Shown piece by piece: positions 24,532 through 26,754 of a DNA stretch of 64,000 bases. A program made the translations under genes and the position numbers. The notes below the pieces were generated by a model. The model searched no databases. It was given only the letters and a program-made list of their open reading frames with translations, and was not told where the DNA came from. The DNA is from Streptococcus suis. Its GTDB lineage: Bacteria; Bacillota; Bacilli; Lactobacillales; Streptococcaceae. The stretch spans positions 1 through 64,000 of the forward strand of contig CP102145.1 in NCBI GenBank assembly GCA_024583055.1, given 5' to 3'. How positions within the stretch are numbered: the stretch's first letter is position 1; every line of letters begins with the position of its first letter.

Positions 24532-25650
24532 ATGACAAATAAAAAAGACAAGAAAAATGAAGTGACCACTTTTGATGTCCAAGTTGCAGAATTTATCCGC
24601 AATCATAAAAAGCAGGGTTCTGCGACAGATGACGAAATCAATGACCAGCTTGTCATTCCTTTCACCTTGGATGCGGACGGCATCGATGACCTTCTTCAGC
24701 GTATCCAAGACGCAGGGATTTCTATTGTGGACAAGGAAGGAAATCCTTCTGCGCGTGCTATGCAGGTAGAGGAAGAGCCAGAACTTTCTGATGAGGAATT
24801 ACTTGGCAGCAACTCTGCCAAGGTCAATGACCCAGTTCGCATGTACCTCAAGGAAATCGGTGTTGTTCCCCTCTTGACCAACGAAGAAGAGCAGGAATTG
24901 GCGCTTGCTGTTGAGGCGGGCGATCCTGAGGCCAAGCAACGTTTGGCTGAGGCCAACCTGCGTTTGGTGGTATCTATTGCCAAGCGTTATGTTGGTCGTG
25001 GTATGCAGTTCCTTGATTTGATTCAAGAAGGCAATATGGGCTTGATGAAGGCCGTTGATAAATTTGATTACTCGAAAGGGTTCAAATTCTCGACCTATGC
25101 GACTTGGTGGATTCGTCAGGCCATTACCCGCGCCATTGCGGACCAGGCTCGTACCATCCGTATTCCTGTGCACATGGTGGAAACCATTAACAAGTTGGTC
25201 CGTGAGCAACGCAACCTCTTGCAGGAACTTGGCCAAGACCCAACGCCAGAACAAATTGCTGAGCGTATGGATATGACGCCTGAAAAAGTGCGTGAAATTT
25301 TGAAAATTGCTCAAGAGCCTGTGTCTCTGGAAACACCAATTGGTGAGGAAGATGACAGCCATTTGGGGGATTTCATCGAGGACGAAGTAATTGAAAATCC
25401 AGTTGATTACACAACCCGCGTCGTTCTCCGTGAACAATTGGACGAGGTTCTGGATACCTTGACTGACCGCGAGGAAAATGTTCTCCGCCTGCGCTTTGGA
25501 CTGGATGATGGAAAAATGCGCACCTTGGAAGATGTGGGCAAGGTCTTTAACGTAACCCGCGAACGCATCCGCCAAATCGAAGCCAAAGCCCTCCGCAAAC
25601 TCCGCCACCCATCTCGCAGCAAACCACTCAGAGATTTTATTGAGGATTGA
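24532..25650 (+). CDS. rpoD: Primary RNA polymerase sigma factor (sigma-70/SigA)
   Basis: 372 residues. Region 1.2 has [11 protein letters not shown]. Region 2 has [20 protein letters not shown] and [17 protein letters not shown] (core binding and -10 recognition). Region 3 follows. Region 4 has [14 protein letters not shown] and the -35-recognising helix-turn-helix [20 protein letters not shown]. It is the housekeeping sigma, consistent with the TTGACA/TATAAT promoters seen elsewhere in the window. The short region 1.1 is typical of streptococci. Co-transcribed with dnaG. Confidence 0.97.
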
Positions 25651-25670
25651 TTTTGTCTGGGAGACAAAAT
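25650..25670. repeat. Perfect 9-bp inverted repeat at the rpoD stop
   Basis: ATTTTGTCT, GGG, AGACAAAAT starts on the last base of the rpoD stop. Its right half recurs as a 25-bp direct copy (25655-25679 and 25986-26010) continuing into the next hairpin unit. It could act as an mRNA end structure for dnaG-rpoD. Confidence 0.6.
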
Positions 25671-25932
25671 CAACCGCTCGCTGAAAACAGGAAACGAGCG
25701 AGGGTTTGGGGGAGGTTTTTAACCGCTCCCCTTGAAATTAGAAAGGGAGCGTAACGCCCAGTGGGCTATTTTAACCGCTCGCTGAAAATAAGAAACGAGC
25801 GTACTCAATACCTGCTAAGAATTGAGAACGCAGGCTAACCACGTGGTGTTTTAACCCGAGCCTAGAAATAGGAAAGCGAGGCTAACCTCCGGGGGAGGTT
25901 TTGACACAAACTTCGTTTGTTTCATCTCCAAC

Positions 25933-25959
25933 CTTCAACAGTCTCCCAGACTGTTGAAG
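25933..25959. repeat. Perfect 12-bp inverted repeat, copy 1
   Basis: CTTCAACAGTCT, CCC, AGACTGTTGAAG. A near copy with a longer loop lies at 26141-26168. Confidence 0.7.
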
Positions 25960-26140
25960 CCTGCTTGAAAATAAGAGAGCAGGCTGTCTGGGAGACAAAA
26001 TCAACCGCTCCCCTTGAAATAGGAAAGGGAGCGTATGCCATTGGTACTTATCAGGTCGCTCGCTGAAAACTCTAAAGCGAGATAAGTCTAATGGACGTTT
26101 AGCGCGAGGATGCTGACTTTCGTCAGTTTTATTTCCCACT

Positions 26141-26168
26141 TTCAACAGTCTCTCCCCAGACTGTTGAA
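26141..26168. repeat. 11-bp inverted repeat, copy 2
   Basis: TTCAACAGTCT, 6-nt loop, AGACTGTTGAA, matching the arms of the repeat at 25933. Confidence 0.65.
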
Positions 26169-26430
26169 ACCCGCCCGAAAATAAGATAGTGTGCTAATGT
26201 CCGGTGAATTACAAGGATACTGATTTCCGTTAGTCTTAGAACGTAGACAAAATATGTTTTAGGTAAATAAAGTAAGTAGCTCTTCTAAGAAAAAATAAAA
26301 ATTTAGTTTATTTTGTGAGCGGAGCCCAAAAGAGACCTTGTCTACAAACTCAGACTGACTTCCGTTAGTCTTATTTCCCCGGGCTGTTGATACCAGTTAT
26401 ATTTTTAGCAAAGAAAGAGAGTGATTGAAA

Positions 26431-26754
26431 ATGGCTTATACAGAAGATCAGATTAAAGACATTCAGGAGCGTATTTTTCAAGCTCTTGAAGATGTGATTG
26501 ACCCAGAACTTGGGATCGATATTATCAATCTTGGTTTGGTCTACGAAATTCGTTTTATTGAGGGCAAGGCTGAAATTGACATGACCTTGACCACAATGGG
26601 CTGCCCTTTGGCTGATCTAATTACCGATCAAATTCATGATGTACTGAAGGATGTTCCTGAAGTAACAGAAGTAGATGTGAGACTGGTTTGGTCACCAGCT
26701 TGGACTGTTCAAAAAATGAGTCGTTATGCTCGAATTGCACTTGGGATTAAATAA
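26431..26754 (+). CDS. MIP18/SufT-like (DUF59) iron-sulfur cluster assembly protein
   Basis: 107 residues. Contains the DUF59 core: VIDPELGIDIINLGLVYEI and the conserved TTMGCPLADLI with its single cysteine. Relatives (SufT, PaaD, MIP18) help deliver iron-sulfur clusters to target proteins. Genes of this family commonly follow rpoD in streptococci. The ATG is used rather than the TTG two codons earlier; the upstream purine-rich aaagaaagagag is a weak ribosome binding site. Confidence 0.88.
   Translation: MAYTEDQIKDIQERIFQALEDVIDPELGIDIINLGLVYEIRFIEGKAEIDMTLTTMGCPLADLITDQIHDVLKDVPEVTEVDVRLVWSPAWTVQKMSRYARIALGIK

Follow-up and report, generated by a model that had tools for sequence, protein, structure and literature searches.

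Arrays of hairpins that are conserved in structure and free in sequence are familiar from integrons, in which attC hairpins of this kind make up a cassette array. For the BOX repeats of streptococci, on the other hand, we know of no settled account of how they move or whether they do anything. BOX elements composed of boxA-F modules (RepSU1) have been described in Streptococcus suis, and the available text of that study terms BOX elements parasitic and now dormant (Croucher et al. 2011, PMC3049150). A different class of small repeat, the GTAG REPs, is stated in the accessible part of PMC3733652 to have termini that often supply a TAG stop codon to flanking open reading frames (ORFs), while correction of inverted repeats by template switching is documented in the portions available of PMC7202029 and PMC3820800. 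Below, we describe an array of hairpin repeats behind the rpoD gene of S. suis and compare it with each of these systems.

The window analysed here is a stretch of 64,000 nt from contig CP102145.1 (assembly GCA_024583055.1), and all features listed below are on its + strand. The ORF for the primary sigma factor RpoD (24532..25650; Pfam sigma-70 regions 1.1-4) is followed by a gene for an iron-sulfur cluster assembly protein (26431..26754; PF01883), which adjoins rpoD in the window and in all 60 fetched loci. Among named strains, those nearest to the window in this second gene belong to S. suis. Between the two genes lie about 780-783 nt without a clear gene, the longest such gap among 61 rpoD loci (the window plus 60 fetched 3' regions, mainly from its nearest relatives together with a hand-picked spread); in eight of these loci the gap is 16-17 nt. 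The hairpin array occupies 25648-26193 and contains nine copies, six of them clear and three degraded, of a hairpin whose 14-nt loop is of the CTNGAAANARGAAA type. Linker hairpins connect these copies, boxB-like modules are interspersed among them, and a deleted boxE-boxF-like element is located after the array. The predicted fold of 25645-26240 has z-scores of -7.3 on the + strand and -8.6 on the - strand, with 0 of 100 shuffles equalling it.

The array starts within rpoD itself. The TGA stop codon (25648-25650) lies inside the first linker (25647..25673), a 12-bp perfect palindrome of the form TTGATTTTGTCT-GGG-AGACAAAATCAA, identified by repeat search and position, which takes in this codon together with the wobble base of the codon before it; the inclusion of the stop codon went unnoticed in the earlier, sequence-only reading of this DNA. 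It is followed by main hairpin 1 (25675..25700; stem CGCTCG/CGAGCG; covariance model R1, E 4.3e-6), an inner linker with TTTTTAAC at its end (25701..25723), main hairpin 2 (25724..25751; CGCTCCC/GGGAGCG; E 6.1e-8), an inner linker with the core GCCCAGTGGGC (25752..25775) and main hairpin 3 (25776..25801; CGCTCG/CGAGCG; E 2.2e-6). The fourth position is taken by an aberrant unit (25804..25834), absent from the R1 list, in which CTCAAT/ATTGAG overlaps CCTGC/GCAGG, the two stems being mutually exclusive or pseudoknotted; the same unit was found again in other strains (type J). After an inner linker CCACGTGGTGTTTTAAC (25835..25855), main hairpin 5 (25856..25881; E 2.8e-8) belongs to a CCGAGC/GCGAGG subtype, the stem of which includes two neighbouring G-A / A-G cells. 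This subtype also occurs at loci L010, L013, L014 and L018, and may contain a structured internal loop.

A further inner linker CCTCCGGGGGAGG (25882..25905) leads into boxB-like module 1 (25906..25959), delimited by local alignment and made up of the hairpin ACAAACTTCGTTTGT, the stretch TTTCATCTCCAAC and the palindrome CTTCAACAGTCT/AGACTGTTGAAG. Main hairpin 6 (25959..25984; AGCCTGC/GCAGGCT; E 1.2e-6) abuts this module and is followed by an inner linker (25985..26005) that holds the second copy of GTCTGGGAGACAAAATCAAC, a direct repeat of 25655 found by repeat search, and by main hairpin 7 (26006..26033; CGCTCCC/GGGAGCG; E 1.6e-8). The remainder is less regular: a degenerate linker with a GTACTTATCAGG end (26034..26055), the degenerate main hairpin 8 (26056..26080; TCGCT/AGCGA), which is absent from the R1 list and nested in a larger stem ACTTATC/GATAAGT, boxB-like module 2 (26112..26169; CTGACTTTCGTCAGTTTTATTTC plus TTTCAACAGTCT/AGACTGTTGAAA, from alignment) and the degenerate main hairpin 9 (26170..26193), a weak R1 match at E 2.2 spanning 26164-26199. 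Beyond the array, repeat search identified the left (26220..26238) and right (26352..26394) fragments of a third boxB-like module. Between them sits an internally deleted dispersed element of the boxE...boxF kind, GAACGTAGACA...TGTCTACAAACTC (26239..26351), recognised by similarity; it was missing from the earlier reading, recurs at seven other genomic places with 80-85% identity, and in its fuller copies includes the same GAAA-loop hairpin. Elsewhere in the source genome (L006, 1000-1400), boxB-like tandem repeats of about 57 nt lie beside a boxE/F-like element.

The sequence-only reading had placed an array of at least nine hairpins behind rpoD. The array is where it was said to be, with a fold that beats all shuffles on both strands; the figure of nine stands if degraded copies are counted, while the covariance model gives six strong matches and one weak one (E 2.2) and leaves two copies unlisted. 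The 25-bp direct repeat is also present (at 25655 and at 25986), as are palindromes whose arms measure 12 bp (at 25647, 25933 and 26140).

The repeating unit is about 49 nt long. It opens with a linker hairpin, whose short loop is usually GGG or AGT, continues with a dinucleotide that is in most cases AC, GC or GG, and closes with the main hairpin, whose 14-nt loop sits on a 6-7 bp stem that is free in sequence but matched between its arms. By eye, the edges of the main hairpin are mostly TTAAC, TCAAC, TCAGC or CTAAC. The six strong matches in the window search (E 1.6e-8 to 4.3e-6) all belonged to the seed of the model. In the 18-row seed alignment, which is biased because rows were picked partly for pairing, 85.7% of the 126 stem cells are standard pairs versus 45.7% in shuffles, and G-U accounts for 1 of the 126. 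A second set of units was assembled by loop and edge with the stem ignored, giving 141 units from 44 of the 61 rpoD loci, and their 874 stem cells comprise 734 Watson-Crick pairs, 23 G-U, 66 G-A or A-G and 51 other combinations. Across the 84 distinct units, 81% of stem cells are Watson-Crick, compared with a shuffled mean of 53% and a maximum of 59% (200 shuffles), which bears out the earlier claim that stem changes are matched by their complements. The upper three-pair loop helix (CTN/NAR) pairs in 63% of cells, so that the loop shows a tendency, not a proven one, towards a tip capped by GAAA and a bulge on the 3' side.

Comparison across genomes revealed a regular relationship between the first linker and the stop codon of the gene. 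rpoD was present in 281 of 284 Streptococcus genomes at E 1e-150. A palindrome runs from the rpoD stop codon onward in 48 of the 61 loci, under a criterion that requires an unbroken run of nine or more Watson-Crick pairs counted from the stop codon, so that perfection is built into this count; inspection of the first 30 bases by eye reveals no near-palindrome in the other 13 loci. All three stop codons occur in the 48 palindromic loci, each with its anti-stop triplet in the opposite arm (TAA/TTA in 29, TGA/TCA in 16 and TAG/CTA in 3), and the match mostly reaches one base further, as the last base of the final Asp codon pairs past the palindrome in the combinations GAT with A (43 loci) and GAC with G (4 loci), the remaining locus having GAT with C. 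In a second, overlapping rpoD set drawn from named genomes, the rpoD end was located in 35 of 80 loci; in 45 it was missed by the search pattern or lies beyond the stretch. Of the ends located, 22 have perfect palindromes. Two loci (L161 and L195) have first linkers that are imperfect by eye, with the stop triplet still matched, and the rule also holds at L056, an rpoD locus outside the 61. Together the two sets contain 24 distinct first linkers, the TGATTTTGTCT type being one of them. Among the 64 ORFs of the window, a palindrome of at least 8 bp starting at the stop codon is found at rpoD only, while five other ORFs have one starting at +5 to +26.

The end of rpoD differs between loci with and without the palindrome. 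Across the fetched 3' ends (L083-L142), GAG-GAY precedes the stop in 47 of 48 palindromic loci, while GAA-GAY does so in 12 of the 13 without a palindrome. This points to one of two situations, an array that moves together with the rpoD end or one that requires this site. On a weakly resolved tree of paaD, the gene next to rpoD, with 47 rows, we counted at least 12 stop-codon changes and 31 first-linker changes, though only 2 independent stop-codon contrasts fall on supported branches. Much of this turnover could arise from the swapping of whole array starts together with rpoD between strains, and such exchange would also account for the GAG codon link. At rpoD, comparison of closely related strains revealed no insertion event, and empty and filled sites could not be aligned.

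Units are also positioned directly behind other genes, including nadE and those for EIIA-man, ribosomal protein L27 and DHDPS (Pfam assignments). To define these contexts, units at loci L002-L082 were taken with any ORF of at least 60 codons, in any frame, ending 15-45 nt upstream, which yielded 27 contexts that are not independent, the loci having been picked by repeat search and many being the same genes, with rpoD also represented. In 16 of these contexts the palindrome begins with the stop codon, in 4 it begins one base further upstream, and the remaining 7 have a different start or no palindrome. Three of these seven start at +2 (L070 and L072, with a mismatch in the stop triplet, and L010, at a second TAA), and the other four are a +3 start at L008 within a boxE/F-like element, a +7 start in a second frame at L010, a -2 start at L053 and no palindrome at L002, those at L053 and L002 being on the reverse strand. 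At L010/L036, the palindrome begins at a second TAA behind the gene's own stop. A narrower test, to which palindromes starting elsewhere are invisible, placed 16 of 37 palindromes at an in-frame stop behind an ORF.

The nadE gene provided a second well-sampled site, with 36 loci (16 best model matches and 20 newly fetched). A unit with at least 10 pairs was found in 23 of them, three rows being duplicates; 15 are perfect and 8 have one mismatch, which falls in the stop triplet at L070 and L072, leaving 21 of the 23 with a matched stop triplet. Four further loci (L240-L243) have a degraded unit with 4-5 mismatches, three (L077, L231 and L235) are unit-free, another four show no unit in the visible stretch, and for two no gene end could be located. 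In three rows of each kind, the site behind nadE measures 65, 65 and 63 nt with a unit and 16 nt without, a difference of 47-49 nt, and the bases are replaced from the stop codon onward with no clear target-site duplication seen. By eye, the three unit-free loci have a long imperfect palindrome of their own from the stop codon, TGAGAC...GTCTCA; reversed, this site resembles a stretch at L105 and is perhaps another stop-anchored repeat.

Since the gene-adjacent linker palindrome begins at the stop codon, the unit supplies the stop codon of the gene behind which it lies. The GTAG/CGTC REPs (PMC3733652, as far as its accessible text goes) resemble the units in being small palindromes behind genes and in supplying stop codons. 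However, the units have no GTAG/CGTC tag at the hairpin by eye, and they use all three stop codons, each matched by the opposite arm. We found no paper on stop-codon-anchored palindromes in streptococci in the open-licence literature, as judged by titles and the beginnings of abstracts, which is weak evidence of absence.

The position of the hairpins, directly behind genes and on the same strand, could be explained if the array were a 3' UTR RNA device, in which the rpoD transcript needs a terminator or 3'-end block and the compensatory changes come from selection on RNA pairing. The strong predicted RNA fold agrees with this proposal, as do 17 of the 24 distinct first linkers, which have at least four consecutive T in the 3' arm, and nadE loci L070 and L072, which resemble single-step intermediates between TGA/TCA and TAA/TTA. 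We nevertheless consider it unlikely. The other 7 first linkers, the window's included, lack a run of four T; the window's first linker has no T-tract and was not scored as a terminator in a terminator scan, and a terminator as the conserved feature was rejected on these grounds. Furthermore, the reverse strand folds equally well, G-U cells are rare in both unit sets (1 of 126 and 23 of 874), 13 of 61 genomes do without the rpoD palindrome, and selection for a terminator leaves unexplained why pairing starts at the stop codon. The missing T-tract and the 13 loci without the palindrome also bear on the 3' UTR regulator of dnaG-rpoD that the sequence-only reading had put forward as a possibility. 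Two other categories were also discarded: a CRISPR array, because the units differ in stem and linker and are not identical repeats with variable spacers, and a known Rfam RNA, since up to E 1 the sole match was to a microRNA family, at E 0.69 and short of that family's cut-off.

The perfect first linkers are also relevant to a purely mutational account, in which the units are inert, template switching during replication rewrites one arm to match the other, and the stop codon is a passenger. The first-linker arms are full Watson-Crick copies of each other, the linker types differ as whole tracts, and the match extends one base into the coding sequence, which is the limit of synonymous change. 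This likeness to quasi-palindrome tracts, whose arms are rewritten to match by the documented template-switch correction (PMC7202029 and PMC3820800, in the portions available), is offset by the inner linkers, which are often uncorrected: among 37 distinct ones, 17 have a perfect stem of at least 5 pairs, while in 20 the longest perfect stem has 4 pairs or fewer. Template switching alone would not yield dispersed, ordered cassettes, and homogenisation leaves unexplained the reordering of cassettes, the 47-49 nt difference at nadE and the dispersed copies. We therefore regard homogenisation as the whole explanation as improbable; template-switch correction may contribute to the perfection of the arms, but it leaves the cassettes unaccounted for.

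The inner units carry a trace of the same rule. An anti-stop triplet precedes the main hairpin in 48 of 59 distinct inner contexts, compared with 18% of random positions, and in 42 of 64 when the register is defined more narrowly; of the eleven exceptions to the first count, five come directly after boxB. That the inner units mostly keep this triplet suggests entry or maturation at the stop-codon end, and most of them would then once have been first in line. The arrays themselves draw on a small set of cassettes, whose order changes at the same locus between strains and species. Growth of the array, one of several possibilities raised by the sequence-only reading, is thus supported by the same cassettes standing in different orders at one locus.

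Another possibility raised at that stage, a small mobile hairpin family, is supported by the copies found elsewhere. The covariance model, with 150 of 723 candidates scored, detects at least 39 places in this genome at E<0.06, six of them in the window; at least 33 matches thus lie outside it, 12 of the 33 coming from the model seed. Under strict filters, 244 of 284 Streptococcus genomes, the source genome included, have a match at E 0.01. A family-wide comparison at E 0.001 gave 227 of 284 Streptococcus genomes versus 3 of 51 genomes of other genera, and the unit is essentially bound to the genus. The sequence-only reading would have been refuted had the model found no other copies and had stem conservation been no better than chance; the check gave the opposite on both counts. 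One unit, at about position 1501 of L014, lies by eye inside an apparent transposase gene on the other strand.

Such dispersal raises the question of what moves the units. No linked transposase or recombinase was found. The Y1 HUH transposase (Y1_Tnp, PF01797) was rejected as the mobiliser, as its distribution over 172 of 284 genomes fails to match that of the units, the unit-rich genomes G001, G079, G248 and G263-G265 lacking it; this also separates the units from the REP/RAYT pairing. In an integron-like or HUH-type system, the folded hairpins would be recombination sites for a putative enzyme, encoded elsewhere, that inserts new cassettes next to the stop codon. The constancy of structure despite free sequence, the 3' bulge, the conserved edges, the anti-stop triplets of inner units and cassette shuffling are all in keeping with such a system, and an array of structure-conserved, sequence-free hairpins is what attC sites form. 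Unlike integron cassettes, however, units of about 49 nt have no room for genes and contain none; no enzyme was identified, the presence of Y1_Tnp does not follow the units, and phage and plasmid records gave no match at E 1e-3. We rate this explanation as a doubtful one. A further proposal, likewise improbable, is a stop-codon-targeted cassette system, in which a putative enzyme would recognise folded single-stranded hairpins and add cassettes of about 49 nt at the 3' ends of housekeeping genes, rewriting the stop codon each time. If this were true, the array would be a polar record of past insertions.

The closest relatives of the array are the BOX elements. Against one pneumococcal BOX copy, boxB-like modules 1 and 2 score 26 and 28, respectively, above the shuffled mean of 14 and maxima of 24 and 23 (300 shuffles each), while the right fragment of the third module scores 20, not above its shuffle maximum of 21. 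The BOX start motif occurs 101 times in the S. pneumoniae 19F genome and its reversed control 0 times. By eye, elements starting TACTCTTCGAAAATC and ending GATTTTCATTGAGTATA enclose a hairpin unit at L016, L063 and L064. Complete BOX ends (start ACTCTTCGAAAATC, end GATTTTCATTGAGTAT) have no match in the window at up to 2 and 3 mismatches, and the array is accordingly not a complete BOX element. From these sequence comparisons, the hairpin unit is probably a module of the BOX family, and one might guess at boxD, the text of PMC3049150 printing no module sequences for comparison.

The likeness to the BOX elements of S. suis and S. pneumoniae, so far as they are described in PMC3049150, therefore comprises boxB-like modules in the array, a boxE/boxF-like element beside it, the unit between pneumococcal-type BOX ends elsewhere, and a common nature as small, modular, expanding intergenic repeats. 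The window array differs in lacking the boxA and boxC ends, and the stop-anchored first palindrome, the genus-wide spread of the hairpin and the matched stem turnover do not appear in the text of that paper. The suggestion that this might be an undescribed system consequently held only in part: BOX elements were already known in S. suis, and the system as a whole is not undescribed, whereas neither the rule at the stop codon nor the module's spread across the genus was seen in the literature searched, and both are new relative to it.

Taken together, the results confirm the original observation and support its reading as a mobile hairpin family. The explanation we favour, with a probability of roughly 60%, is that a modular BOX-family repeat, non-coding and non-autonomous, lies here in tandem copies; such a repeat would lodge at the 3' ends of genes and be reshuffled by recombination. 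Under this explanation, new units would enter or mature at the stop-codon end, and older ones would be pushed inward, losing the outer left arm of their linker. Recombination between repeats and exchange of the DNA flanking rpoD between strains would then reshuffle the array. Stem pairing is probably maintained at the DNA level, through recognition of a folded single strand or through template-switch correction of palindromes. The repeat would most likely be a genomic parasite, for which gene 3' ends serve as harmless docking sites, and its hairpins, once transcribed, may act as 3' ends incidentally.

The array also carries a caution, in that compensatory changes in a hairpin need not imply a working RNA. 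For streptococci, a stop codon that changes with the first copy across the genus shows where and how these repeats join a gene. The order of units in an array may in turn be readable as a history of insertions, a question that comparison of strains can test.
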